This document shows positions 1,983-31,056 of a stretch of 64,000 nucleotides of DNA, in pieces. Both the position numbers and the translations under genes were made by a program. Source of the DNA: Gemmatimonadota bacterium. Lineage in GTDB: Bacteria > Gemmatimonadota > Gemmatimonadetes > Longimicrobiales > Gaopeijiaceae. How positions within the stretch are numbered: position 1 is the stretch's first letter; the number at the start of each line of letters is the position of its first letter. The stretch covers positions 1 through 64,000 of the forward strand of contig JAPPGZ010000060.1 in the NCBI GenBank assembly GCA_028874905.1. Reading direction: 5' to 3'. Under the pieces are notes generated by a model that was not told the origin of the DNA, made no database searches, and worked only from the letters and a program-made list of their open reading frames with translations.

Positions 1983-4900
1983 CGCTCCCGCCCCCGAATC
2001 CTATCCCAGTAATCCGTCGGCCGGTCGTCGCTGAGCAGCGCGTCCTGGTCCACCCAGTAGGGCTCGCCAAAGGGCCGGTCGCGTGGCCACATCTCGTCCA
2101 GCGTGTCGCCGTCGTAGACGATCCCGTCCTTGATCACCATGGCGATGTCGGCCGTTGCGCGGATGTCCTCCAGCGGGTTGGAGTTCAGCACCACGAAGTC
2201 TGCCAGCTTCCCCTCGGCCAACGACCCGAGTTCGTGCGCCAGCCCCAGGAAGTGCGCGCCGTGGATGGTGCCGACCTCGATCGCGGTGTGCTCGTCCGAC
2301 CCCGCCGCGACCATCCAGACCTCGTAGTGGGGACCGAGCCCGTGCAGCTGGCCGTGCGCACCGATCGCGCCCCAGCCGCCCTCCTCGATGATGTCGGCCA
2401 TTCCGCGCGCAATCAGCGGGAACGAGTAGTCGGTCTCCGGCCGCAGCATCCGCCGCCGCGTCACTGGAACCAGCATCCGCCAGGGCAGCCAGCGCTGCAT
2501 CTTGGGATCCTTCCAGATCTCGTACTCCTGGTAGAAGTACTCCTCGTTCCAGGGCCCCGGACCGCCCACCATGAACGTCGGCGAGTACACGGCATCCGCC
2601 TGCCCGAAGAACTTCGCCACGTCGCTGTAGAGCGGCACGTAGCTCAAGGGGTGCTCCCATGCCGTGTGCCCGTCCATGATCATGCCCATGTTGAACTCGA
2701 TGTCGCCCCCCTCCGAGGTGACTCGCAGCCCGCGCACGCGCGCTGCCTCGGTGACCCACTGCCGCTGGTGTCGCGTCGGCTGGAGGTACTCCTTGATCGT
2801 CACCGCGCCCCACGACATGAGCCGCGCTACGTTCTGGTCCGCCAGCTCGTAGCTCGAGATCTCGTTCTGGCGCGCGCCGTCGCCCGAATACACCGGATCG
2901 CCGGTGCTGTAGACACGAGGCCCGATCATCCTGCCCGACTCGACCAGTTCGGCGGCCGGGAACACGTTGGCCGACCACTGCGAGTTGTCGAGCGTCGTCG
3001 TCACCCCATAGGCCAGGTAGATCGCCGACTCCCAGTTGCGTAGCGGGATGATGCCCAGGTGGTCGCGGTGGTGGTGGGCGTGCATGTCGATCAGCCCCGG
3101 GATGATCGTCTTGCCGGTGGCGTCGAACACCTGGTCCGCGCCGGCCGTGTCGCACGCGCCGACGCAGGTGAGCCTGCCGTCCGTGGCGACGAGGGTTCCG
3201 TTTTCAAGGACGACGTCGTCCTCGACGGTGACGATGCGGGCGCCTGTGAAAGCCACCGTGCCGGATGCGATGTGGCGGGGAAGTTCCAGCCGGATCGGCA
3301 CCTCCTCGGTCTCACCCGTGGTGACATCGTGCGCGTAGTAGCGCGGCCCGCTCACGAACTCGAGCGTGGTCGCGTCGCGCCAGCGCGGGTGGATGCCCCC
3401 CTCCAGGCTGAGCTGGGTCACGGGGAGCTGACCGTCGCGCTTGGCGATCCGCACCGTATTGGATCCCGTGCCGCCGTACGGGAACGGCATCCGGTAGACG
3501 TTGTCCCCCTCCTGGAAGGCCAGCCACGCCCCGTCGGGCGACACGGCCGCCTCGTCGGCGTCGGGCAGCGTGAAGTGGACGCGGCGGTCCGTGCCGTCCA
3601 TGCGGATGGAGGCGATGTCGGTGCCCGCAGGGTCGTCGCCCATCGGGCCGAGCGCCTCGGCGTAGAAGAGCCGCGCGTCGGGGCCGAACCAGGCCTGGGG
3701 CGGGGGACGGCGGGGCATCATCGGGCGGCCGCCGGTGTAGGGTCGCGCGACCTTCGTGATCGTGCGGGTATCGCCGCCCTCCGCGGGGACCGCCACGAAC
3801 TCGAAGTACTCGTTGCTGGCCACGGTGCGGCCGCGGCTGGTCGCGCCAGCGCCGCGGGTGGCCACGATCTCGCCGCCGTCGGGGCTCCATACCGTGTTCA
3901 TGTATTCGCCCTCGCGGGTGGTGAGCTGCTCGGGGGTCCCTCCGTCGGCCGAGACGCGCCAGATGTGGCCGCGCCCGTTCTGCTCCCAACCCGAGAATGC
4001 GATGGCGCGGCCGTCCGGCGACCAGGCGGGGGCGATCTCGGAGTGTTCGAAGGAGTCGTCGGTGAGGCGGGTGGGCGTGCCGTCGGGCAGGTCCATGGTC
4101 CAGATCCGGCCAGCTGCGTGGAAGGCGAGACGGCTCCCGTCGGGTGACGAGGCGGTCCAGCGCGGGAACTTCACCGTGAAGGTCGTGCCGAGCGGCTCCT
4201 GGGGCCGCCCTGCCATCTCGGAGATGACGCGATGCACCCGCGCCGTGAACGCGATGGTGCTCACCTCGCCGCTCTCGACATCGACCCGGCGAATCTTCCC
4301 GCCCGCCGGAATCACGATCGAGCGGCTGTCGCGCGACCACGCGTAGCCGGGAAGATCGCGCGAGACCTTCATGCCCTCGGCCATGTCCACCTCGATCGGG
4401 TCCATCAGCACACGCTCCGCCCCCGTCTCGAGGTCGCGCAGCCAGAGCGCGGTGCGGGGACCGAACCTGAGCCCCTTGTGCGAGATCGTCCCGTCGGGAA
4501 TCCGTCGACCGAAGGCGAGCCAGCGCCCGTCCGGCGACGCTTCGGGCGCGATCGCGCCGCCGCTCGAGGTCTGCCCCTGCTGCACCACCTGGCCCGTCGT
4601 CACCTCGTCCACGCGCCCCGACTCGAGGTCGAGCCTTCGGACCTGCTTGTAGCCGTGTACGATGTCGGAGCGTCCCGACCAGATCCCGGGCGGTGCCGTG
4701 CGGACCTGGAAGTAGAGCGATCCGCCGTCGGGCGAGAAGGCGGGCCACGCAGCGGCCGGGTAGTCGGAACCGACCAGCTCGACCCCTTCACCTCCGTCCC
4801 GCGAATACATCCACAGCCCTGCGCCTCCGGCTCCGCGCCGTGTGGATGCGCGGCGGACCGCGATGAAGCGGCCGTCGGGCGACCAGGCCGGTTCCCACGC

Positions 4901-5344
4901 GCGCAGCCCCTGGTCCTCGAACACCGGCCGCGGATTGGATCCGTCCGCGTCCATCAGCCACAGGTTGCTCTGGCCGCCGCGGTCGGAGATGAACGCGATC
5001 GTGGAGCCGTCGGGTGAGAAGCGAGGATGGTAGTTGACCGCGATGCCGCTGTTCTGCGTCAGCGCGACCGCCTCGCCACCAGTAGCCGGCACCTGGTAGA
5101 CGTGGCCCAGGAGGTCGAAGATGACCGACTCGCCGTCAGCGGAGAGGTCGACGGACATCCACGTGCCCTCGCTGGTGGTGAAATCGATTTCGCGCGTCTC
5201 GCCGCGCGGAGCCGTGACGTCCCAAGCCTCGGAGTCGTCCGCCTCGTCCTGGGCGTGAAGGGGGACAGACGAGACGATCCACAACGACGCCAGTAGCATG
5301 CCGATGCAGCTCGGGCTCTGAAGAGGGATTGTTTGCGGGCGCAT
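1979..5344 (-). CDS. Secreted TolB-propeller amidohydrolase
   Basis: 1121-residue exported protein. Residues 1-31 form a signal peptide ending VPLHAQ. Residues of about 40-690 are WD40-like/PD40 (TolB-type) propeller blades with repeated SPDG..IAF and WSPDGR patterns. The C-terminal third is an amidohydrolase domain: a metal-binding HAHHHRDH motif follows IIPGLIDM near residue 750, and the domain ends with the LADFVVLNSNPLEDI strand typical of the family. The substrate cannot be read from sequence; related proteins are annotated as dipeptidase-like or imidazolonepropionase-like. It is transcribed divergently from the TonB receptor at 5515 across a 170 bp gap. Confidence 0.85.
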   Translation of the reverse strand: MRPQTIPLQSPSCIGMLLASLWIVSSVPLHAQDEADDSEAWDVTAPRGETREIDFTTSEGTWMSVDLSADGESVIFDLLGHVYQVPATGGEAVALTQNSGIAVNYHPRFSPDGSTIAFISDRGGQSNLWLMDADGSNPRPVFEDQGLRAWEPAWSPDGRFIAVRRASTRRGAGGAGLWMYSRDGGEGVELVGSDYPAAAWPAFSPDGGSLYFQVRTAPPGIWSGRSDIVHGYKQVRRLDLESGRVDEVTTGQVVQQGQTSSGGAIAPEASPDGRWLAFGRRIPDGTISHKGLRFGPRTALWLRDLETGAERVLMDPIEVDMAEGMKVSRDLPGYAWSRDSRSIVIPAGGKIRRVDVESGEVSTIAFTARVHRVISEMAGRPQEPLGTTFTVKFPRWTASSPDGSRLAFHAAGRIWTMDLPDGTPTRLTDDSFEHSEIAPAWSPDGRAIAFSGWEQNGRGHIWRVSADGGTPEQLTTREGEYMNTVWSPDGGEIVATRGAGATSRGRTVASNEYFEFVAVPAEGGDTRTITKVARPYTGGRPMMPRRPPPQAWFGPDARLFYAEALGPMGDDPAGTDIASIRMDGTDRRVHFTLPDADEAAVSPDGAWLAFQEGDNVYRMPFPYGGTGSNTVRIAKRDGQLPVTQLSLEGGIHPRWRDATTLEFVSGPRYYAHDVTTGETEEVPIRLELPRHIASGTVAFTGARIVTVEDDVVLENGTLVATDGRLTCVGACDTAGADQVFDATGKTIIPGLIDMHAHHHRDHLGIIPLRNWESAIYLAYGVTTTLDNSQWSANVFPAAELVESGRMIGPRVYSTGDPVYSGDGARQNEISSYELADQNVARLMSWGAVTIKEYLQPTRHQRQWVTEAARVRGLRVTSEGGDIEFNMGMIMDGHTAWEHPLSYVPLYSDVAKFFGQADAVYSPTFMVGGPGPWNEEYFYQEYEIWKDPKMQRWLPWRMLVPVTRRRMLRPETDYSFPLIARGMADIIEEGGWGAIGAHGQLHGLGPHYEVWMVAAGSDEHTAIEVGTIHGAHFLGLAHELGSLAEGKLADFVVLNSNPLEDIRATADIAMVIKDGIVYDGDTLDEMWPRDRPFGEPYWVDQDALLSDDRPTDYWDRIRGRER

Positions 5345-5514
5345 CGGAAAAACCTCCGTTCACGAGTACCGGGAGCAGGCTGAGGGCGGACGCGGTCCGC
5401 CCTGACGCTCACACTGCGGAGGCCGGTGACGACGTGCAACACGAAACCTCTGCCGTGCTTCGGCGTACACCGGTTCATGATCCCATTCAACATCGGTAGC
5501 TCAAGGAGCATTCC

Positions 5515-8295
5515 ATGATCAGAAAAACGTTCGTCTTCCTCGCAATTCTCGCGTCCCCTTCCGCGGCCCTCGCGCAGGGCACCGTCGAAGGGACGGTCCG
5601 CAGCGGCCAGAGCGGACAGGGGCTCGGCAACGCCCGCGTAGAAGTCACCGGCCTCGGGCTGGTGGAGTACACCGGCGCGGCCGGCACGTTTTCCATCTCC
5701 GGCGTCCCCGCCGGCACGCATACCCTCGAAGTCCGGCTTCTCGGCTACGGTCTGCATACGCAGTCGGTGACCGTGGCCCCCGGGCAGACGCTCAGTCTGG
5801 ACCTGGCGCTTGACGTCGTAGCGTTCGCGCTCAACGAACTCGTGGTGGTCGGGAGCCGCACGAGACCCCGCACCGTCACCGAGTCGATGGTGCCCGTGGA
5901 CGTGATTCCGGTGTCGGAGATCTCCCGCCAGGCGGAGACCAACATCGACTTCCTGCTTCGCAACGTCGTTCCGTCGTACAACGTGAACATCCAGCCGATC
6001 AGCGATGCGGCGACGATCACACGACCGGCCAACCTGCGCGGTCTGGCGTCCGACCACACGCTGGTGCTCATCAACGGGAAGCGCCGACACCGGGGCGCGG
6101 TCATCACCTGGCTGGGCGGAGGGCTTTCCGACGGCGCGCAGGGCCCCGACATCGGAGCCATCCCGGGCATTGCGCTGCGTCAGGTGGAGGTGCTGCGCGA
6201 TGGCGCGTCGGCGCAGTACGGTTCGGACGCCATCGCGGGCGTGCTGAACTTCCAGCTGAAGAACGACCGCTCCGGCGGATCGGTGCAGGTCAAGCAGGGC
6301 CGGCACTTCGACGGCGTCGAATTCGTCGATGGTGCGGACCGGAGCTGGGGCGGCCACGGGAACGCGATCGCTGTGGCGGGCAACTTCGGGGTCCCGCTCG
6401 GCGAGTCCGGATTCGCCAACGTCAGCGTGGAGTACGGCAACCAGGAGCCGACGGATCGCGCCATCCAGCGTAACGACGCGGCGGGGCTCGTGGCTGCGGG
6501 CAACACGGCCGTGCGGACGCCTACCGCCCAGGTCTGGGGCTCCCCCAGGGTCTCCGACGACCTCAAGGTGTTCCTCAACACCGGCTATAACTTCGACGAC
6601 GACGAGCAGGTCTACGCCTTCGGCAACGTCGGCACAAAGCGAGTGGACGGCGGCTTCTTCTTCCGCAACCCGAACACCCGCGGCGGCGTTTTCTCGGGCG
6701 ACGGCGGTGCCACCCTCCTGATCGGCGATGTGCTGCAGGCGAAGGGCCTCGGATCGGCCAACTGCCCGGTCGTAGCGATCACCAACAACATCCCCGACCC
6801 GGTTGCGCTCCAGCAGGTATTCGACGACCCGAACTGTTTCTCCTACCAGGAGATGTTCCCCGGCGGCTTCACGCCGCAGTTCGGCGGGGAGGTCTTCGAC
6901 GCCTCGATCGTCGGTGGAATCAGGGGCCGCACCGACAGCGGCATCAACTGGGATGCCAGCACGAGCTGGGGCAGGAATCTGGCCGATTTCTTCATCTACA
7001 ACACGGTGAATGCGGCGCTCGGTCCCGAGACCCCCACCGAGTTCGACCCCGGCCTGTACAACCAGGAAGAGATCAACCTCAACCTCGACCTCTCCTACCA
7101 GGTCAACGAGGTGGCCAACGTCGCGGCCGGGTTCGAACAGCGCGAAGAGCGGTTCGAGATTGGACAGGGCCAGGACGAATCCTGGAAGATTGGACCGTAC
7201 GCGGCCCAGGGCTTCAGCTCGTCGTCGAACGGCTTCCCCGGATTCAGCCCGCTCGCCTCCGGTGACTGGACCCGCAGCAACACGGCGGTGTATGCCGACC
7301 TCAACCTCGGCCGGGCCGACGACCCCTGGGCCATAGGCATTGCGGGGCGCTACGAGAACTTCTCCGACTTCGGCGGCAAGGCGACCGGCAAGATCTCCTT
7401 CCGGTTCGAGGCCACCGACAGGATCGCGTTGCGGGCGAACGCCAACACGGGCTTCCGCGCGCCCACACCCGGGCAGCAGAATGCCTTCAACGTCTCCACG
7501 GTCTTCGATACCGATCTCGGCGACCTGGTCAACCGCGGCACCATTCCCTCCACCTCGGAGGTGGCCAGGACCCGAGGCGGACGGCAGCTGGAGCCGGAGA
7601 CCTCGGTCAGCCTGACCGGCGGCGTCGTGTACGAGGCGGGCGCATTCCGCTTGACGGCGGACTACTTCCGCATCTCGATCTCGGACCGCTTCGCCCAGAC
7701 CAGGACCTTCAAGCTCACGCCCGCCGAGGTCACTCAGCTGGTTTCGGAGGGTGTGACGAGCGCCGCGAACCTCGCGGAGTTCCGCTTCTTCACCAATGAC
7801 TTCGCGACCCTGACCCAGGGTATCGACCTGGTGGCGAACTACTCGCCCGGAGAGGCGACCAACGTAAGCCTGCTCTTCAACTACACCGGCACCGAGGTCA
7901 CCGAGCGCAATCCGGAAGTCGTGAACGACGCGCGCGTGGACCAGCTCGAGCGGGCCCTGCCGCGCTATCGCAGCGTGCTGAGCCTGTCGCGGCAGCTTGG
8001 CAGTCTGAGCGCCCTGGCCCGTGGCACCTACTACGATGGCTTCTACGATTCCGAACTCAGCGACCCCGACCTGCGGTACGGCGCGCGCGTCCTCTTCGAC
8101 GCCGAGCTGTCGGTGCCGCTGGCGGACAACGCGGCGATCGCCTTCGGCGCCAACAACCTGTTCAACACCTACCCGGACGAGAATCCCGCCGCGTCCGGCC
8201 TCGGTGCGCTCTATCCCGAGAGCGCTCCCTACGGCTTCAACGGCGGCTACTACTACGTCAGGTTGAGCTACGACTGGCTGTGGGCGACGCGGTAG
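5515..8295 (+). CDS. TonB-dependent receptor with carboxypeptidase-regulatory N-terminus
   Basis: 926-residue outer-membrane transporter. A signal peptide (1-20, ending ALAQ) is followed by a CarboxypepD_reg-like beta-sandwich at about 22-105. A plug domain follows at about 115-245, with the motifs TRPANLRGL, LVLINGKRRH and VEVLRDGASAQYGSDAIAG. The rest is a 22-strand barrel ending in aromatic-rich YYYVRLSYDWLW. The substrate is unknown; the family imports siderophores, glycans or peptides using TonB energy. It has its own intrinsic terminator at 8357 and a divergent amidohydrolase neighbour, so coupling of uptake and cleavage is possible. Confidence 0.92.
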   Translation: MIRKTFVFLAILASPSAALAQGTVEGTVRSGQSGQGLGNARVEVTGLGLVEYTGAAGTFSISGVPAGTHTLEVRLLGYGLHTQSVTVAPGQTLSLDLALDVVAFALNELVVVGSRTRPRTVTESMVPVDVIPVSEISRQAETNIDFLLRNVVPSYNVNIQPISDAATITRPANLRGLASDHTLVLINGKRRHRGAVITWLGGGLSDGAQGPDIGAIPGIALRQVEVLRDGASAQYGSDAIAGVLNFQLKNDRSGGSVQVKQGRHFDGVEFVDGADRSWGGHGNAIAVAGNFGVPLGESGFANVSVEYGNQEPTDRAIQRNDAAGLVAAGNTAVRTPTAQVWGSPRVSDDLKVFLNTGYNFDDDEQVYAFGNVGTKRVDGGFFFRNPNTRGGVFSGDGGATLLIGDVLQAKGLGSANCPVVAITNNIPDPVALQQVFDDPNCFSYQEMFPGGFTPQFGGEVFDASIVGGIRGRTDSGINWDASTSWGRNLADFFIYNTVNAALGPETPTEFDPGLYNQEEINLNLDLSYQVNEVANVAAGFEQREERFEIGQGQDESWKIGPYAAQGFSSSSNGFPGFSPLASGDWTRSNTAVYADLNLGRADDPWAIGIAGRYENFSDFGGKATGKISFRFEATDRIALRANANTGFRAPTPGQQNAFNVSTVFDTDLGDLVNRGTIPSTSEVARTRGGRQLEPETSVSLTGGVVYEAGAFRLTADYFRISISDRFAQTRTFKLTPAEVTQLVSEGVTSAANLAEFRFFTNDFATLTQGIDLVANYSPGEATNVSLLFNYTGTEVTERNPEVVNDARVDQLERALPRYRSVLSLSRQLGSLSALARGTYYDGFYDSELSDPDLRYGARVLFDAELSVPLADNAAIAFGANNLFNTYPDENPAASGLGALYPESAPYGFNGGYYYVRLSYDWLWATR

Positions 8296-24801: not shown

Positions 24802-24873
24802 GCGATTAAAATAGGTGTCCCGGAACCGGGGGTGTACCCGGTGGAATCCAACATACTGCAACGGACCACGAAC

Positions 24874-25500
24874 ATGTCTCCATCCATTCGATTCCCGGCC
24901 GGCATGCGCACTGTCGCGTTGCCGGTCCTGCTGGGCCTGCTTGCGACCACCAGCTCGGCTCGCGCACAGGACCTGGGCCCGGTCGACGGTCATGACCTGC
25001 CGCCCACCGACATCGAGCGCGTGGCGGTCGGGGACGAAGCGCCGCTATTCACCCTGGAATCGTTCGGCCGCGGCCAAGTGGCGCTCTCGGGATTCCGAGG
25101 GGACAAGAACGTGGTGCTCGTCTTCTACCGGGGCCACTGGTGACCGTACTGCGCCAGTCAGCTCGTGGAGCTGAGAGCCCTTTTGCCCGCAGACCTCGAG
25201 GACGAGACCGAAATCGTGACGGTGTCTGTGGACGACCAGGAGGGGATGCAGTTGATGATCGACCGTGTCGCCGCGGAAGACGGCATGGCCCCCGACTTCA
25301 TCATGCTCTCCGACCCCGACCACGCGGTTATCGACCGCTACGGCCTGTTCAACGAGAACGCGCCTCCGAACCGGCCTCTGCCGCATCCCGCCACCTACGT
25401 GATCGACAAGGATGGTGTCGTACGGTACCGCTTCGTTGAGGTGGACTACCGTGTGCGGCCCACCAACGAGGACATTCTGGAGGTCCTGAAGACGCTGTAG
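24874..25500 (+). CDS. Secreted AhpC/TSA-family protein, predicted selenoprotein (UxxC, Sec90)
   Basis: Second peroxiredoxin-like selenoprotein candidate. The frame is interrupted only by TGA at 25141-25143. Read as residue 90, it gives VLVFYRGHW-U-PYCASQLVEL, matching the family motif YRGHWCPYC, so U replaces the peroxidatic Cys and forms a UxxC redox pair with Cys93. Downstream sequence is fully conserved (ETEIVTVSVDDQEGMQL, HPATYVIDKDGVVRYRFVEVDYRVRP). The signal peptide (TSSARAQ) places it in the periplasm. The start is uncertain: ATG 24874 gives the neatest signal peptide; GTG 24832 and ATG 24904 are alternatives. A 7 bp hairpin at 25158-25174 fits a SECIS. Total 208 residues. Confidence 0.83.
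25158..25174 (+). promoter_or_regulatory. SECIS-like hairpin after the UGA
   Basis: A perfect 7 bp stem TCAGCTC/GAGCTGA closes a GTG triloop. The loop begins 21 nt after the UGA (25144-25164 between), identical to the spacing of the hairpin at 15869. Loop position 1 is G. Two unrelated stem sequences with the same spacing argue that the structure, not protein conservation alone, is under selection. Confidence 0.7.
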
Positions 25501-25736: not shown

Positions 25737-26336
25737 ATGCCTGAAAGCCACTGCGAAGCGTCCAGCTGCCCACTACTACCCTCGGAGCACCGCGTCGCAC
25801 GTCGCCGCCGCTCAGCGATCCTGACTCTGGTGCTGGTGCCGGCGTCGATCGCACTCGCGGCGCTTGCGGTCTCCGACCTGCCCCGCATGGGGCGAATGGC
25901 GGCACGCGTCGACCTGGCCAGGCTGAATGCAGAGTTCCTGGAAGATGACGCGGTCGTCTTCCAGTCGGCGCTGAATGACTGCGGGCCGGCGGCGTTGGCC
26001 AACATGATGCGCGCGGTCGGTGTCGTCGCGCCCTCGACCGACACACTCGCGGTACTCGCCGACATGGGGCCGAGAGGTACGACCGCCGGCGGGCTGATTC
26101 GCGCCGCCGGCCGATTCGGCCTGCCGCTCACGCTGGTTCGGCTGACACCGGCAGACCTCAGCAGCGCACGCACGCCGTTCATCGCGTGGGTGAACCGCAA
26201 TCACTTCGTGACAGTCACCGGAAGATCACCGTCCGGCAGTTTGACCGTGGTGGATCCGACGGCGGGCCGCTACTCGATCAGCGAGGAAGCATTCCTGGAG
26301 ATCTGGTCCGGCGAGTCGATCGTGTTCGCCGGGTAG
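25737..26336 (+). CDS. Membrane-anchored C39-type (double-glycine) peptidase
   Basis: 199-residue stand-alone peptidase_C39-like protein. The catalytic Cys is in FQSALNDCGPAALANMM (Q76 oxyanion, C82), His156 in WVNRNHFVTV and Asp173 in LTVVDPTAGRY. Residues of about 24-46 are a membrane helix after an Arg-rich stretch (ARRRRSAIL), so the catalytic domain faces the periplasm. C39 domains cleave leaders after a double Gly, matching the V-x-G-G-Q sites in the six peptides that follow. Unusually it is not fused to an ABC exporter. It starts the cluster, with the first peptide gene 63 bp downstream. Proposed role: maturation of the propeptides after Sec export. Confidence 0.82.
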   Translation: MPESHCEASSCPLLPSEHRVARRRRSAILTLVLVPASIALAALAVSDLPRMGRMAARVDLARLNAEFLEDDAVVFQSALNDCGPAALANMMRAVGVVAPSTDTLAVLADMGPRGTTAGGLIRAAGRFGLPLTLVRLTPADLSSARTPFIAWVNRNHFVTVTGRSPSGSLTVVDPTAGRYSISEEAFLEIWSGESIVFAG

Positions 26337-26399
26337 TTCCTGGGTGCGGTCGCGGCGAGGGGCGTTGCGGCTTCTTTCACAATCGCTGAGGAGGAGAAG

Positions 26400-26684
26400 A
26401 TGAGGAAAGGACAAATGCGGGCCACAGTGTATGCGCTCTGTCTCGCGCTGCTTGTGGGGCAGGGAGCGCACACAATCGGTGGGGCGCCGGTCGACGCCCC
26501 GGAGAGTGAAGTACCAGCCTCAGTTGAGGGTCGCGGATGGATATCGTTCAGTATCTGCGTCGGTTGCGTGTTCTCGGGCATCACCCTGGCCATGACAGGC
26601 GGAATCGTGGCAGCAGCGAGTGTACCCGGTTCGACCATGGCGCTCGCCGGATGTATAGCCGCGTGTCATGACGCAATATCCTGA
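26400..26684 (+). CDS. Prepropeptide 1 (CxxC...CxxxC family)
   Basis: 94-residue precursor, first of six tandem paralogues. Basic start (MRKGQMR), hydrophobic signal-like segment at about 8-22, and a short acidic pro-region. The processing-site equivalent SVEGRG (41-46) has GRG where the others have GGQ or GAQ. The core is hydrophobic and Gly/Ala-rich, with C53-x2-C56 and C85-x3-C89 separated by 28 residues and five residues after the last Cys. Its own Shine-Dalgarno is GGAGGAGA. I know no named family for it; the cysteine layout and size recall halocin-C8-like or class II bacteriocin peptides, but that is analogy only. An extra Cys14 sits in the signal region. Confidence 0.72.
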   Translation: MRKGQMRATVYALCLALLVGQGAHTIGGAPVDAPESEVPASVEGRGWISFSICVGCVFSGITLAMTGGIVAAASVPGSTMALAGCIAACHDAIS

Positions 26685-26701
26685 TTGACCATGGAGACAA
26701 C

Positions 26702-27037
26702 ATGAATAAGACAACGTCCAAAGAGACTCACATAGGCATGGCGGTGATACTGTTGCTTGCTCTTGCAAATGGCTCGGTGAACCCGCTTGCGCATGAAGGA
26801 CAAATGGCTACGCCCGCGGACATCGTGCAAGCAGTGGGACCTGGTCAAACGGTAACTGAAAGAGACACGACCACTGTCGAGGGAGGACAGAAGCTTGTCA
26901 AGGCAGGCTGCATTCTGTGCGCTGCGGCCATTCTCGTAGGGGGAGGAGCAAGTGTCATCGGTTTGATAGTATTGGCGTCGGCGGCCCCGATTGCTACGGG
27001 CGCGTGTGCCTTCGTCTGTACGCTGGGGTACGGATGA
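26702..27037 (+). CDS. Prepropeptide 2 (CxxC...CxxxC family)
   Basis: 111-residue precursor, the longest of the six. Signal-like helix at 11-24 (IGMAVILLLALANG) and a pro-region of about 35 residues ending TTTVEGGQ (GGQ at 61-63). The core has C70-x2-C73 and C102-x3-C106, spacing 28 as in peptide 1, and tail TLGYG. Between the pairs is an uninterrupted hydrophobic Gly/Ala/Ile stretch that could form a membrane-active helix. The gene is visibly richer in A and T than the neighbouring enzyme genes. Shine-Dalgarno GGAGA, 17 bp after the previous stop. Confidence 0.72.
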   Translation: MNKTTSKETHIGMAVILLLALANGSVNPLAHEGQMATPADIVQAVGPGQTVTERDTTTVEGGQKLVKAGCILCAAAILVGGGASVIGLIVLASAAPIATGACAFVCTLGYG

Positions 27038-27075
27038 TCATCGGTTTCGGTGACAAGAAAGAAAGGATGGCGCGA

Positions 27076-27363
27076 ATGAAAAAGACAAGCGTTGCAACAG
27101 TGATACGGATCTTGATCGTGGTTGCACTGGTGAACGCCACCAGCGTGGGAAACCGGCAGGCGCAAGTCGCCGTTGACAAAGCAGGGCCGGTCGAGACAAG
27201 TGTGGTGTCGGAGGAGGCCATTGTGGGCGCTCAGAACACGGGTCTCAACATAGCGTGCTGGGGGTGCATCGCCGGCACCATCATTCTGGTGACGACAACC
27301 GGCGTTGGAGGGTTTCTTGGGATCGCTTGTGGTTTTGCATGTGGTAAGCTTGCCTTGGCATAA
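27076..27363 (+). CDS. Prepropeptide 3 (CxxC...CxxxC family)
   Basis: 95-residue precursor from the ATG at 27076, chosen for the AAGGA 8 nt upstream; ATG 27067 abuts the purine run and would add MAR. Signal-like segment VATVIRILIVVALVNA, then a pro-region ending SEEAIVGAQ (GAQ at 51-53, one Gly replaced by Ala). Core cysteines C61-x2-C64 (CWGC) and C85-x3-C89 (CGFAC) with 20 residues between, tail GKLALA. The core begins with NTGLN after the site, similar to peptide 6 (NAG). Confidence 0.72.
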   Translation: MKKTSVATVIRILIVVALVNATSVGNRQAQVAVDKAGPVETSVVSEEAIVGAQNTGLNIACWGCIAGTIILVTTTGVGGFLGIACGFACGKLALA

Positions 27364-27377
27364 CTTGGGAGGAGATG

Positions 27378-27668
27378 ATGACTAAGCTACGTAGTAGGCG
27401 GCTGACGGGAGCTGTGATGGTCGCGGTATTGATGGCGGGGTCACTGCGAGGTGTTGGGACCGGTGCTGACAACGCCGTGGTGTGGGAGGCGCGTTCGGAG
27501 GTCGCTGAATCGAGTGTGTCCGGAGGACAGGGATGGTTGGGGTTCTGGGGATGTGCAGGTTGCATCGCAGGGGGGCTGGTAACCTCGGTTGCGTCAGGCG
27601 GGGCGGCGGCCATCGTATTGATGGGTTGTGGAGTCCTGTGCAGCTTGGCGTTCGCTGAGGAACTCTAG
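27378..27668 (+). CDS. Prepropeptide 4 (CxxC...CxxxC family)
   Basis: 96-residue precursor starting MTKLRSRRL (ATG 27378, GGAGG 5 nt upstream; ATG 27375 is too close to it). Signal-like helix GAVMVAVLMAGSLRGVG, pro-region ending AESSVSGGQ (GGQ 49-51). The core GWLGFWGCAGC...CGVLC has C59, C62, C84 and C88 with 21 residues between pairs and an eight-residue acidic tail SLAFAEEL, the only one of the six ending in acidic residues. It lies 14 bp after peptide 3. The aromatic start of the core (GWLGFW) is shared in spirit with peptide 1 (WISF). Confidence 0.73.
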   Translation: MTKLRSRRLTGAVMVAVLMAGSLRGVGTGADNAVVWEARSEVAESSVSGGQGWLGFWGCAGCIAGGLVTSVASGGAAAIVLMGCGVLCSLAFAEEL

Positions 27669-27691
27669 GATCTGGTTATGGAGGTGAAGCC

Positions 27692-27985
27692 ATGAGACGT
27701 ACAATGGACAGGTGGTTCCTCGGCATTGCGATGACGCTATCGGCTGGTGGGGGGACCGTAGTGGGTTTGACGTTCGAGGCAGAAGCGGAGCGATACGGTA
27801 CTGGTGCCTCGACCGACGTGACTTATCCGGCAAGTGTTGTTGGCGGCCAGGGTGTAAGCGCCGATGCGCTTTGTGACCTGTGTTGGTCCGCCGCCAGGCA
27901 TTTCCTCTATTTGCCACCCTGGCAACGGACGGCGGGAAGTGTAGTCTGCGGAATAGTCTGTACAGTGAATCTCGGAACCGCATAG
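27692..27985 (+). CDS. Prepropeptide 5 (CxxC...CxxxC family)
   Basis: 97-residue precursor with a strong GGAGGTGAAG ribosome site. Signal-like region WFLGIAMTLSAGGGTVVG, pro-region ending YPASVVGGQ (GGQ 51-53), core with C61-x2-C64 (CDLC) and C86-x3-C90 (CGIVC), 21 residues between. The inter-pair loop is less hydrophobic and more basic and aromatic (ARHFLYLPPWQRT) than in the paralogues, with a Pro-Pro turn, so this member may have a distinct target or partner role (two-peptide action is possible). Confidence 0.72.
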   Translation: MRRTMDRWFLGIAMTLSAGGGTVVGLTFEAEAERYGTGASTDVTYPASVVGGQGVSADALCDLCWSAARHFLYLPPWQRTAGSVVCGIVCTVNLGTA

Positions 27986-28004
27986 AGAAAGGCAGGGAAG
28001 GATG

Positions 28005-28304
28005 ATGAGGCTGAGTAACAGGATTGTTCGAGGTGTCGTAGCGGCGGCTGCCGTCGTGACCGTTGGGACTGCAGGAGCTTCGGGGACAGGGTACGGAGTC
28101 GAAGCGGACGCAAGCTTGGTTGGAGCGCCGGTGGAGGCGGAGATTGCGGATCAGGTTGTCGGAGGCCAGAACGCGGGTGTCGTGGCGCTCGTAGCTGCAC
28201 TGCAGATGTTGTGCGTGCAGTGCGTTTTCGAGGCGGCTTCGGCCGAGCAGATCGATCTCGTGGCACTAGCAGAGTGCACGATCATCTGCAACGTCGCGTT
28301 CTAA
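28005..28304 (+). CDS. Prepropeptide 6 (CxxC...CxxxC family)
   Basis: 99-residue precursor (ATG 28005; ATG 28002 is possible but abuts the GGGAAGG). Signal-like segment VVAAAAVVTVGTAGASG, long acidic pro-region, site IADQVVGGQ (GGQ 53-55). The distance from the site to the first Cys is 14 residues instead of 6-7, and the pair spacing is the shortest at 17 (C70-x2-C73, C91-x3-C95). The loop is acidic (EAASAEQIDLVALAE), unlike the basic loop of peptide 5. It is the last peptide before the hairpin at 28325. Confidence 0.7.
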   Translation: MRLSNRIVRGVVAAAAVVTVGTAGASGTGYGVEADASLVGAPVEAEIADQVVGGQNAGVVALVAALQMLCVQCVFEAASAEQIDLVALAECTIICNVAF

Positions 28305-28324
28305 TCAGACAACAGGGAAGCGGA

Positions 28325-28359
28325 GGGGGACCCGGGCAGTTGCTGCGCCCGGGTCCCCC
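28325..28359 (+). terminator. Strong hairpin between peptide genes and maturation/transport genes
   Basis: A perfect 13 bp G+C-rich stem GGGGGACCCGGGC/GCCCGGGTCCCCC with a 9 nt loop AGTTGCTGC lies 20 bp after the last peptide gene. No T tract follows; the next gene's GGGAGGA begins 4 nt later. It fits a leaky terminator or an mRNA 3'-stabilising processing structure. Either would give much more peptide mRNA than transporter mRNA from one operon. Confidence 0.7.
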
Positions 28360-28372
28360 GATGGGAGGAATC

Positions 28373-28921
28373 ATGGGGATATCGAAACCATCGGTGCGTC
28401 AGAAGAGCGCAGCGTTGGCGTTGGCGGCCGGTGTCGCGGGGATAGCGGCTGCGCCGTTCCTCTGGATGGGTAGGGCGGGGGATGGTCCGGATACCCCGCC
28501 CTGGGTGCTTCCGCCCGTCTCGGGGTCGCTACGGGAGTCGGAGACGTGGACGTACCGGACCAACCAGGCAGGTGCGACGGCCTTGATCTATGTGGATCGC
28601 AGCTGTGTTCACTGCAAGGCGGAATTGGAGTTATGGGAGTCGGTGGCGGAAGGTGACGCGGACGGTGTAGCGGTCTGGGTGGTGGCATCTCCGAGGTCGG
28701 TGATGGAGGGCGCGAACTGGGTTCCCCCTTCGCTTCGCGCGCGGACGGTACACGACCGTGACGGAAGTGTGGGCCGGGCCCTGGGGGTCAGCGCGGTTCC
28801 CGCAACGTTCTGGATCGACGAGACCGATACGGTCCGAATCGTACGTGTCGGACGTAGCAACAGGAACATGCTTGCCGAGAACATGGTGGCGATGAGCGGA
28901 ATGGGAGAATCGAAGTCATGA
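28373..28921 (+). CDS. Membrane-anchored thioredoxin-like protein of the peptide cluster
   Basis: 182-residue protein with an N-terminal membrane anchor (about 11-31, SAALALAAGVAGIAAAPFLW) and a periplasmic thioredoxin fold. Active site SCVHCKAE (C78-x2-C81) and a cis-Pro region GVSAVPATFWID. In context it would form, isomerise or reduce the two disulfides expected in each peptide core; the related MauD/TlpA branch serves cofactor-protein maturation. ATG 28373 has GGGAGGA 3-4 nt upstream. Its stop overlaps the next ATG (ATGA). It is distinct from the TlpA at 16218, which has WCEQC. Confidence 0.8.
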   Translation: MGISKPSVRQKSAALALAAGVAGIAAAPFLWMGRAGDGPDTPPWVLPPVSGSLRESETWTYRTNQAGATALIYVDRSCVHCKAELELWESVAEGDADGVAVWVVASPRSVMEGANWVPPSLRARTVHDRDGSVGRALGVSAVPATFWIDETDTVRIVRVGRSNRNMLAENMVAMSGMGESKS

Positions 28922-29598
28922 GTGGACGAGAAGGGACCGGCGGGGGCGGGCGACGGACTCTCGCGGCGCTGAGGCATTTTTTGAACATGCTCGTTCCCAG
29001 CCTGGACGACATTCGTGAACATCGTCCCATCGTACCGCCACTGGTCATTGGGTGGGTGTTCTCGCTGGTAGCCGCGTTCTCGCTGCGGCCGCTGTTACTG
29101 AGCGCCATGGCAAGCCAGGGAGCGGAAGTTGCCCAGGGGACGCTCCTTGTGCTGGGAATAGTAGCGGTGATGGCGCCTCTGGTTCACCTGCTCAAGGCGG
29201 GGCTCCTGATCGCCTTGGGGTGGGCCGTGCTGGTGCTCACGAACTCGCAGCGCCGCATCCGACCGATACTGTCGGTACTTCTTTACGGGGAAGCGATTCT
29301 CGCGGCGCAGGGGGTGCTCCAGGCACTCTATCTGCACTTGGCCACGGGTGGGAGCCCAACCTCTCCCGTGGATCTTCAAGCCAGCCTGGGGTTGGCTGCC
29401 TTCGTCCCGGCCACGAGCCCGGGTCTGCTAGCGGTCGCCCAGAGTTTTTCGGTGGGTCATTTCCTCTGGTTCGGGTTCCTTGTGATTGCTTTGCGCCGGT
29501 GCGATGGTCCGGAGCCCCGCCCGTCTTTCGGACTCGCGCTTTTCTTCTGGGGCGTTATGGTGGCCTTTTCAGCGGCGCGCGCATGGGTCACATTGTAG
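28918..29598 (+). CDS. Yip1-like polytopic membrane protein
   Basis: 226-residue integral membrane protein with about five to six hydrophobic helices. The layout (a soluble start MLVPSLDDIREHRPIVPPLVIGW, then TM pairs GTLLVLGIVAVMAPLVHLL, LLIALGWAVLVL and FLWFGFLVIAL) resembles the bacterial YIP1 family, but the match is by overall pattern only. It overlaps the upstream thioredoxin-like gene by 4 bp and precedes the ABC ATPase by 44 bp. It could be an immunity protein, a transporter accessory or a scaffold for the C39 peptidase. Confidence 0.6.
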   Translation: MSGREGTGGGGRRTLAALRHFLNMLVPSLDDIREHRPIVPPLVIGWVFSLVAAFSLRPLLLSAMASQGAEVAQGTLLVLGIVAVMAPLVHLLKAGLLIALGWAVLVLTNSQRRIRPILSVLLYGEAILAAQGVLQALYLHLATGGSPTSPVDLQASLGLAAFVPATSPGLLAVAQSFSVGHFLWFGFLVIALRRCDGPEPRPSFGLALFFWGVMVAFSAARAWVTL

Positions 29599-29642
29599 AG
29601 CGGACGAGAGAGAGGGTGGGCGGGCGGCGTGGAGATGGCCAA

Positions 29643-30359
29643 ATGGCCGGAGTGAGGCTGCGGGGACTCAGCGTCCGGTATTCCAACTTCCTCCTGGAGC
29701 CGATGGATCTGGACATCGACCTGGGAGAACGCGTGGCGTTGGTTGGAGCGAACGGGGCCGGGAAGAGCACGACACTCAAGGCGGTCGCGGGTCGGCTTCG
29801 GGACTACGAGGGCAGGGTGGAGGTAGGCGGAGGCGATATCAGGCCCCGGTTGCCAGGGATCAGGGCGACCATCGGGTTTCTCCCCGAACGCCCGCTTGGA
29901 TTCGGGTGGATGACCATCGATCAGCACTTGCGGTTCCTCTCGACCTTCTTTCCCACTTGGGACCGCGACTACGAACGGGAACTCCTCGCTCGCCTGGAGC
30001 TTCCGGGCACGTCGAAGGTGGGTACGCTTTCCAGGGGGATGTCGGTCAAGCTATCGCTGGTAACGGCGGAAGCGCACCGGCCACCGATCCTCATTCTCGA
30101 CGAGCCCACCACGGCCATCGATCCGGTCATGCGACGTGAGCTGTTGAAGATCATCGGTGATTGCGCACCAACAGGCGGCGATCGCCTCGTCCTCTTTTCC
30201 AGTCACATCCTCGAAGATGTGGAGTTCATTGCCGAGCGGGTGGTCCTGATGAGGCGAGGACGGATCCTCGAAGACGTGACAACACAGGAGCTGCAGGAAC
30301 GCGATCCCGGCGCGCCTCTCTCCCAAATCCTCGTTTCAGCGTTGGAGTCCGATGACTAG
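29643..30359 (+). CDS. ABC transporter ATP-binding protein of the peptide cluster
   Basis: 238-residue ABC ATPase. Walker A GANGAGKST (35-43), signature TLSRGMSVKLS, Walker B ILILDEPT and the switch His in FSSHILED. The LSRGM signature and length place it in the CcmA/YtrB/BcrA-like group that pairs with ABC-2 permeases and often gives bacteriocin self-immunity or export. The start is ATG 29643 with GGAG 8 nt upstream. Upstream in-frame codons overlap the Yip1-like gene and are not expected to be translated. It overlaps the permease gene by 8 bp. Confidence 0.9.
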   Translation: MAGVRLRGLSVRYSNFLLEPMDLDIDLGERVALVGANGAGKSTTLKAVAGRLRDYEGRVEVGGGDIRPRLPGIRATIGFLPERPLGFGWMTIDQHLRFLSTFFPTWDRDYERELLARLELPGTSKVGTLSRGMSVKLSLVTAEAHRPPILILDEPTTAIDPVMRRELLKIIGDCAPTGGDRLVLFSSHILEDVEFIAERVVLMRRGRILEDVTTQELQERDPGAPLSQILVSALESDD

Positions 30360-31056
30360 TCAAGCCTTCTGGATTCTGGTGGCACTGGAGTTCCGACGCT
30401 CCCGTCGGAGCTTGGTGCGAATTGGCGTTTTCCTCCTGGCAGTTATGGTCATCTCGCTCATGGTGGAATCCCCAACGTCAGTGCTGACCTTCGGACTGGC
30501 CGTGGTGGGTGGCGCACTCGGTATGCAGATACCGGTTGATGCGCTCCAGGACAGGTTGACGGGCAGCCTGGAAGTGCTCACCACGCTCCCCGTGACCCCC
30601 TTTACGCTTGCGGCAGCCCGTCTGACGGCGGTGGTCCTTGTTGCGGCGCTGGGAGCCGTACCGATGGCTGCTGCCGGTGGCATCGTGGGCCCCGCGTTTC
30701 TGGAAGACACAGGCTTGATCCGCATCATCATGGCCGCTTTTCTGGGAGCCTGGACCATGCTTTCGGCGATGTCGGCGGTGCTCCTTGCGGTCTTGCTTCG
30801 CTTCAAGGTCAAGCCGCTGGTTTCCTATGGTGCGATGGTTGCGCTGGGGATGTTGTTGGGAGCAGGGTATCTCTACGATCGCCTCTTCGGGAGTCCGATG
30901 CGGTTGATCCAGGCCGTGATGGCCAGCGACCACACCCTGGCGATCGCCGTCGGCAGCGCCCTTGTCGGTTCAGCTGTGGTCCTGACGGCGTCATTCGTGC
31001 TCACCCGCAGGGGGTTCGAGATCTACCAGCCGGAGCCGGATGCGATGGACTGGTAG
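30352..31056 (+). CDS. ABC-2-type permease of the peptide cluster
   Basis: 234-residue membrane protein with six predicted helices: about 22-40, 46-62, 85-110, 117-140, 160-180 and 198-220. It has an ABC-2-like cytoplasmic coupling region (QDRLTGSLEVLTTLPVTPFTLAAARL). The LTTLPV..F..AR pattern resembles ABC-2 and CcmB-type permeases. Together with the ATPase it would form a homodimeric exporter or immunity pump for the mature peptides. No extracytoplasmic solute-binding protein is nearby. The stop at 31056 appears to end the cluster. Confidence 0.8.
   Translation: MTSQAFWILVALEFRRSRRSLVRIGVFLLAVMVISLMVESPTSVLTFGLAVVGGALGMQIPVDALQDRLTGSLEVLTTLPVTPFTLAAARLTAVVLVAALGAVPMAAAGGIVGPAFLEDTGLIRIIMAAFLGAWTMLSAMSAVLLAVLLRFKVKPLVSYGAMVALGMLLGAGYLYDRLFGSPMRLIQAVMASDHTLAIAVGSALVGSAVVLTASFVLTRRGFEIYQPEPDAMDW

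Follow-up and report, generated by a model that had tools for sequence, protein, structure and literature searches.

A conserved gene cluster of Gemmatimonadota that probably makes a two-peptide, disulfide-stapled, bacteriocin-like pair

What does a bacterium make from a row of small secreted, cysteine-bearing peptides encoded between a C39-like peptidase and a set of membrane proteins? The question is raised by positions 25737-31056 of a 64,000-nucleotide stretch from a Gemmatimonadota bacterium of the family Gaopeijiaceae (assembly GCA_028874905.1, contig JAPPGZ010000060.1, positions 1 to 64,000), hereafter the window. A first-pass annotation had described there a six-peptide system with a C39 protease, a thioredoxin-like protein, a Yip1-like protein and an ATP-binding cassette (ABC) pair, and had proposed antimicrobial or signalling peptides as its product. 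Our comparison of genomes showed that this association of peptide, C39, thioredoxin-like, Yip1-like and ABC genes is real and conserved, and that its conserved unit is two peptides, A and B, not six. Judging from sequence comparisons, we think it probable that the cluster makes a two-peptide, disulfide-stapled, bacteriocin-like and membrane-active pair, to which this genome adds four paralogues.

Gene order and distribution of the cluster

The genes, their order and their common strand are as first annotated, including the C39 assignment of the first gene. The locus reads as follows (L-numbers denote loci and G-numbers genomes of our comparison sets; the window's own cluster is counted among the 19).

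25737..26336, + strand: stand-alone C39 peptidase with one N-terminal membrane helix (PF03412, E 1.9e-21)
26400..26684, + strand: precursor of peptide A, universal partner 1, with a VEGRG site and a C-x2-C and C-x3-C core (A type in 19/19 clusters)
26702..27037, + strand: precursor of peptide B, universal partner 2, with a VEGGQ site (B type in 19/19 clusters)
27067..27363, + strand: accessory peptide C, VGAQ site, four cysteines (orthologues in L021 and L022)
27375..27668, + strand: accessory peptide D, SGGQ site, four cysteines (orthologue in L021, contig-cut copy in L022)
27692..27985, + strand: accessory peptide E, VGGQ site, four cysteines (orthologue in L021)
28002..28304, + strand: accessory peptide F, VGGQ site, four cysteines (orthologue in L021)
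28325..28359, + strand: 13-bp G+C-rich hairpin between the peptide F gene and the thioredoxin-like gene (z -4.6)
28373..28921, + strand: membrane-anchored thioredoxin-like protein with a C-V-H-C active site (Redoxin, PF08534, E 1.9e-5)
28918..29598, + strand: Yip1-like membrane protein with five hydrophobic segments (PF04893 in some homologues)
29643..30359, + strand: ABC ATPase (best NCBIfam match PmtA, E 1.1e-35)
30352..31056, + strand: ABC-2-like permease with six hydrophobic segments (PF12698 at E 0.2 only)

The starts of the thioredoxin-like and ATPase genes were re-examined and are most likely 28373 and 29643.

A search of 98 relatives with the C39 protein found 19 places in 18 genomes, the window's own included. 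Outside the window this left 18 places. Twelve repeat the window's gene order, all on a single strand; the six others (L033-L038), which are weaker C39 matches, have the gene in a different setting, with less than 1 kb of sequence beyond it in L033. A C39 profile run against 395 Gemmatimonadota genomes matched 28 of them and added six clusters, so that the window and 18 other loci share order and strand; L022 is cut by the contig end, and the C39 gene of L072 begins at a contig edge. The C39 type of these clusters was defined after the search, by a gap in E values (<=1.3e-28 vs >=1.7e-23) and by context. These peptides adjoin C39 and thioredoxin-like genes in other genomes too, as a genuine system had been expected to do in the first-pass annotation.

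The co-occurrence suggested there as a check was also seen from the side of the peptides. A profile of 37 A and B cores matched 13 of the 98 relatives, the same 13 that have this C39 type, and 19 of the 395 genomes of the phylum, namely the 18 with this C39 type and, weakly, G368. Matches within the clusters are expected, because the profile was built from them; what tells more is the lack of any other noteworthy match across the sampled phylum. The match in G368 (L130, G368:C142:45075-45203, E 3.5e-4) lies inside an open frame of 431 residues and is probably due to chance. Seven of the genomes with a C39 match and no cluster (G028, G077, G081, G118, G135, G190, G366), judged by the peptide profile and not by gene context, have no match to it. 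None was found either in the phyla to which a Polyangiaceae (282 genomes), a Ruegeria (398) and a Methanobacteriaceae (149) genome belong, 829 genomes in all, but these are samples only, and an empty result without a positive genome shows nothing. Finally, a scan of named-species genomes with one C39 pattern returned 17 loci. Ten are clusters already found, from metagenome-assembled genomes titled Gemmatimonadota, Gemmatimonadetes, Gemmatimonadales or Longimicrobiales; in the seven others (L083-L089) no such cluster was seen, and L085, from a Gemmatimonadetes metagenome-assembled genome, ends inside the C39 gene, so its context cannot be judged.

A conserved pair of peptides and its machinery

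The six precursors in the window are built alike: a signal-like helix is followed by a pro-region, then by a V-x-G-x-G/Q-like site and then by a hydrophobic core that bears a C-x2-C and a C-x3-C motif. From A to F, the loops between the two motifs measure 28, 28, 20, 21, 21 and 17 residues and the C-terminal tails 5, 5, 6, 8, 7 and 4, in agreement with the ranges annotated earlier (17-28 and 4-8). This cysteine pattern exceeds chance: when all six frames of the complete window were scanned for C-x2-C-x(15-32)-C-x3-C close to a C-terminus, exactly six matches came up, all in these genes, and 30 dinucleotide shuffles gave a single match in total, none with the G-x-G/Q motif.

Types A and B are both present and adjacent in all 19 clusters. 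Type A, which precedes type B, mostly has a PGS/T-like motif in its second half and a loop of 28-32 residues; the loop of type B has 28-29. The split between the types has a support of 0.986, and the nearest neighbour is of the same type for all 37 cores (18 A and 19 B, peptide A of L027 being excluded because its leader is missing). The six-peptide layout was not borne out as a family trait, since ten of the 19 clusters encode A and B alone (L029-L032, L067-L072). Accessory peptides, two to four of them, occur in eight complete clusters (the window with its C, D, E and F, L021 and L023-L028), and at least two in the contig-cut L022. The eight complete clusters belong to three genera of one family, the window's own genus among them, and that of L026 places the accessory peptides ahead of A and B. 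In L027, positions 4771-4929 and 5396-5969 (operon-strand numbering) hold an A core with no recognisable leader and two peptides more.

The core starts follow from a rough rule; on that basis the mean hydropathy (GRAVY) is 1.26 for the 18 A and 1.35 for the 19 B cores, with on average 2.4 and 3.1 charged residues. The absence of a named family, claimed in the first-pass annotation, holds: no Pfam or NCBIfam model matches more than one of the 37 cores or two of the 46 precursors, and none does so consistently. Among solved structures there is no relative of peptide A and one chance-level match for B (E 2.2).

The four cysteines, whose conservation had been proposed as a check, are invariant in all 37 A and B cores. 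In five accessory peptides (two in L024, three in L028) the core has only two cysteines, one per half; this arrangement makes bonds that join the halves more likely than bonds within CxxC, and speaks against a metal site made of four cysteines. The putative cleavage site had been given as V-x-G-G-Q-like; such a motif is indeed present, but its family-wide form is V-x-G-x-G/Q-like, the first glycine being the fixed residue. Read row by row, this glycine is found in 37/37 cores and is followed by any residue and then by G (32), Q (4) or D (1), with V two positions before it in 30/37. The aligned columns give 33, 3 and 1, and 29 for V, the row of peptide B of L075 being out of register. In C39 substrates positions P2 and P4 matter, and these would suit the fixed glycine and the hydrophobic residue two places ahead of it.

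The C39 protein has a single N-terminal hydrophobic segment (residues 27-45) with arginines ahead of it, and its peptidase domain is probably outside the inner membrane. Its Gln76, Cys82, His156 and Asp173 are invariant in 13/13 homologues. Its profile matches the peptidase domain of the 4s0f chain, an ABC-type bacteriocin transporter that we take to be PCAT1 (E 1e-17), and chains of ComA, named competence factor transporters, are among its matched relatives; the C39 protein here is not fused to any transporter. The thioredoxin-like protein matches Redoxin just below the model cut-off, has both CxxC cysteines and a VP pair invariant in 12/12 aligned sequences, and has a homologue in all 18 clusters that are not cut ahead of its gene. 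The Yip1 label is weakly supported, by PF04893 matches in four of ten homologues (best E 0.001), not by the window copy (226 residues, five segments), which has no match. The ABC ATPase (238 residues) has no C39 domain, and its PmtA match is below the family cut-off, as are the other matches shown.

The permease is the least conserved machinery gene: it is 65% identical to that of L021, the nearest complete relative, against 82-90% for the other machinery genes, and it has the lowest identity to the window among the five machinery proteins in 16 of 17 other loci compared. Its fast divergence would fit a part that tracks the peptides, and ordinary fast permease evolution fits too. Selection was estimated with NG86 from the single pair formed with L021, so the values are rough. 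The ratio of nonsynonymous to synonymous rates (dN/dS) is below 1 for all 11 genes (range 0.11-0.69): 0.25 for C39, 0.23-0.69 for the six peptides, 0.27 for the thioredoxin-like gene, 0.11 for the Yip1-like gene, 0.21 for the ATPase and 0.37 for the permease. A tree of the joined machinery proteins mostly follows families, with L068 and L069 placed away from theirs.

A chromosomal site with exchanged cassettes

The cluster is found in seven of the 23 genomes of the window's genus, always with a peroxiredoxin gene upstream. A peptidase-like gene, presumably M28-like, follows the six uncut clusters and is present in 23/23 genomes. We could read this site in 15 of the 16 cluster-less genomes, G004 having too little contig. 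The two flanking genes adjoin in five of them, which leaves the site empty. Four others (L138-L141) have there another cassette, related among the four, and two (L148, L149) have a third; of the remaining genomes, one has no peroxiredoxin gene that we could see and three end at contig edges. The cassette of L138-L141 encodes a propeller-like protein with a weak match to a 6-bladed beta-propeller (PF17170, E 0.0063 in the L139 copy), an ABC ATPase, a permease and small secreted multi-cysteine proteins with a leader ending in AQ. The third one encodes a propeller-like protein (NHL, E 0.0011, below the cut-off) and three small secreted cysteine peptides. It also has a fragment matching the N-terminus of C39 (E 3.1e-6 and 6.5e-6), which suggests replacement of the cluster. 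Secreted-peptide cassettes exchanged at a fixed site are expected of competition genes, but are not proof of them.

The peroxiredoxin-like gene (24832-25500, + strand) matches AhpC/TSA (E 2.8e-27) when its in-frame TGA (25141) is read as cysteine, and its product is probably a selenoprotein. The motif FYRGHW-TGA-PYC was recognised in 17 loci, and every one of them has TGA at this codon; L026, L144 and L145 have peroxiredoxin matches in which the motif was not found. The window's genome has a selenocysteine tRNA (tRNA-Sec) match of 68.9 bits (cut-off 47), and the hairpin after the TGA is unexceptional (z -1.3).

Possible function and smaller features of the locus

How would such a system work? 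In the mechanism that we propose, the precursors, with their signal-like N-termini, would be exported by the Sec route. The membrane-anchored C39 peptidase, with its predicted topology placing it outside the cytoplasm, would then cut at or near V-x-G-x-G/Q and release hydrophobic cores, each some 50 residues long. Oxidation of their four cysteines to two disulfides would fall to the CxxC thioredoxin-like protein, and these bonds would presumably lock each core into a helical hairpin by joining its halves. A and B would act jointly on the membranes of close relatives and kill them, while the Yip1-like protein and the ABC pair would protect the producer, move the mature peptides outward, or both. 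Some accessory peptides may be immunity peptides, by analogy with the hairpin-like GIP for gallocin A. More tentatively, we see a serious possibility, somewhat short of an even one, that a Gram-negative phylum has here a new class of peptide antagonism: paired hairpin toxins, each with two disulfides, whose maturation takes place entirely outside the cytoplasm, with ABC and Yip1 proteins serving for immunity and not as the primary exporter, and with a repertoire swapped as cassettes at one site.

Several observations weigh against a bacteriocin-like pair processed in this way. The residue after the fixed glycine is R (8), A (8), T (6), G (5), Q (3), F (2) or, once each, N, S, M, D and L among the 37 cores. 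Such variation is atypical of the double-glycine cleavage rule for C39 and weakens a strict double-glycine reading. Peptide A of L027 has no recognisable leader, and the two other peptides of this locus have paired C-x2-C motifs but no G-x-G/Q site. Many bacteriocins are cationic, unlike the peptides here, whose mean net charge (-0.7 for A, -0.6 for B) is close to neutral or faintly negative. Two comparisons are close to neutrality, the leader of peptide E (dN 0.65 vs dS 0.63) and the core of A against L022 (dN 0.147, dS 0.164). No dedicated immunity gene was identified. A secreted peptide with no antagonistic role, lost many times, would likewise account for inheritance that runs mostly along families.

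Pheromone signals for communication among kin, exported or imported by the ABC and Yip1 proteins, would suit the small size and near-neutral charge of the peptides, the several variants per genome in nine of 19 clusters, and the processing of signalling peptides by other C39 domains, such as the ComA chains. We nevertheless consider signalling unlikely, given the strongly hydrophobic and paired cores, with A and B both kept in 19/19 clusters, and the lack of a regulator or sensor among the conserved genes from C39 to permease, the flanks not having been searched for regulators. It is somewhat less likely again that the cysteines bind metal or take part in membrane redox chemistry, the thioredoxin-like protein keeping them reduced as part of envelope housekeeping. 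A metal could also be bound by C-x2-C and C-x3-C, a CxxC protein may act as a reductant and not only as an oxidant, and in the genus the gene of a probable selenoprotein peroxiredoxin precedes 7/7 clusters. Yet the accessory peptides with one cysteine per half do not suit such a site, and the patchy presence of the cluster (18/395 genomes) and the exchange of cassettes look unlike housekeeping.

We think it quite improbable that the peptides are a remote offshoot of the halocin C8-like bacteriocins or of those cyclised head to tail. The cores are hydrophobic, and Yip1 proteins are common in circular bacteriocin clusters, some beside ABC components, according to a published report (PMC8659200). 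The C-terminal tails are variable, though, no Pfam model matches consistently, and neither the Yip1-like protein nor the permease has a Pfam match to DUF95/SpoIIM, which another report makes class-defining for circular bacteriocins (PMC11580447). Halocin C8 itself had been named as the nearest analogy. Its model TIGR04450 (Gpos_C8_like) gave no significant match, hitting two of 46 precursors with a best E of 4.6, and we rejected the relation. A cysteine-containing, secreted, hydrophobic peptide is common to both; halocin C8 has ten cysteines where the cores here have four, and no fused immunity region was seen here. The cluster is a conserved system for which our searches found no name, and a bacteriocin-like pair appears to be the best supported reading of it.

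The closest worked-out parallel to such a pair would be gallocin A, closer than halocin C8, as a likeness of working between systems unrelated in sequence. Gallocin A is reported to consist of two peptides, both required, with a disulfide in each, hairpin models and an activity lost on reduction, and its killing needs BlpT, a thioredoxin-domain protein (PMC10100652). Gallocin A (GllA1/GllA2, BlpT), a class IIb system, and the cluster have in common two unlike peptides with few charged residues, a thioredoxin-domain partner, a disulfide between halves (in hairpin models there, predicted here) and cleavage of a leader, proposed here and, there, made at a double glycine during export by an ABC transporter; four cysteines instead of two set the present peptides apart. 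Unlike class IIb systems, this one has a stand-alone membrane C39 protein, a signal-like N-terminus plus pro-region, a Yip1-ABC module and a host in Gemmatimonadota. PF10439 (class II double-glycine bacteriocin) is absent from the Pfam matches of the 37 cores (E <=10, with HMMER filters) and of the six window precursors (E <=1). In place of the leader removal by the ABC exporter that marks class IIb, the sequences have a C39 protein standing alone with its own helix and an ABC ATPase without such a domain. Because PF10439 is unmatched and C39 is not in the exporter, we speak of likeness to class IIb, not of membership.

The second half of the cluster has parallels of its own. According to three reports (PMC11580447, PMC10707071, PMC8659200), leaderless and circular bacteriocin clusters repeatedly have a Yip1 protein encoded next to ABC genes, and that of bawcin has 223 residues and five predicted helices. 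Bawcin resembles our cluster in its ABC ATPase, permease and five-helix Yip1 protein (here a Yip1-like one of 226 residues), and differs in being leaderless and in having no C39 or thioredoxin gene among the seven genes listed; circular bacteriocins differ in being cyclised. The C39 domains of the 4s0f and ComA exporters are of the same family, with the same catalytic residues, but ours is unfused to an ABC transporter and has its own membrane anchor. The exporter domains have strict GG/GA sites, here replaced by G-x-G/Q. The SKF and sublancin loci of Bacillus subtilis also bring together a peptide, a protease, a thiol oxidoreductase and an ABC transporter, and differ by a radical SAM or a glycosyltransferase gene, neither of which is among the conserved genes here.

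No such cluster is described in the title or abstract start of the few open-licence papers that searches naming Gemmatimonadota, Gemmatimonadetes or a stand-alone C39 brought up. If the pair is what we think, two-peptide disulfide bacteriocins, described from Gram-positive bacteria in the literature examined, reach Gemmatimonadota, a phylum whose competition systems are, to our knowledge, little known. The separation of the C39 peptidase from a transporter would then provide a testable export-then-cut route. The cluster also gives a concrete handle on an open question, the role of Yip1 proteins in bacteriocin clusters.

Some smaller features of the locus complete this description. A plasmid origin was rejected, peptide A having no match in 72,556 plasmid records, and so was a defence system, the C39, thioredoxin-like, Yip1-like and permease proteins having no PADLOC match (the peptides and the ATPase were outside that scan). 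No tRNA that could point to tRNA-linked integration was found in the window. The G+C content is 0.60 over the peptide genes (26001-28000), with a GC skew of +0.195, and 0.63-0.72 in the other 2-kb windows. The hairpin at 28325..28359 has no T-run and is a candidate transcript-stabilising or attenuating stem; a stem between the genes of abundant peptides and those of scarce machinery is a common operon device. With z scores taken from mononucleotide shuffles, the stem at the border between peptide and machinery genes is near zero in three of nine loci scored (L024, L025, L030) and below -2 in the six others, with a sequence that differs between loci.

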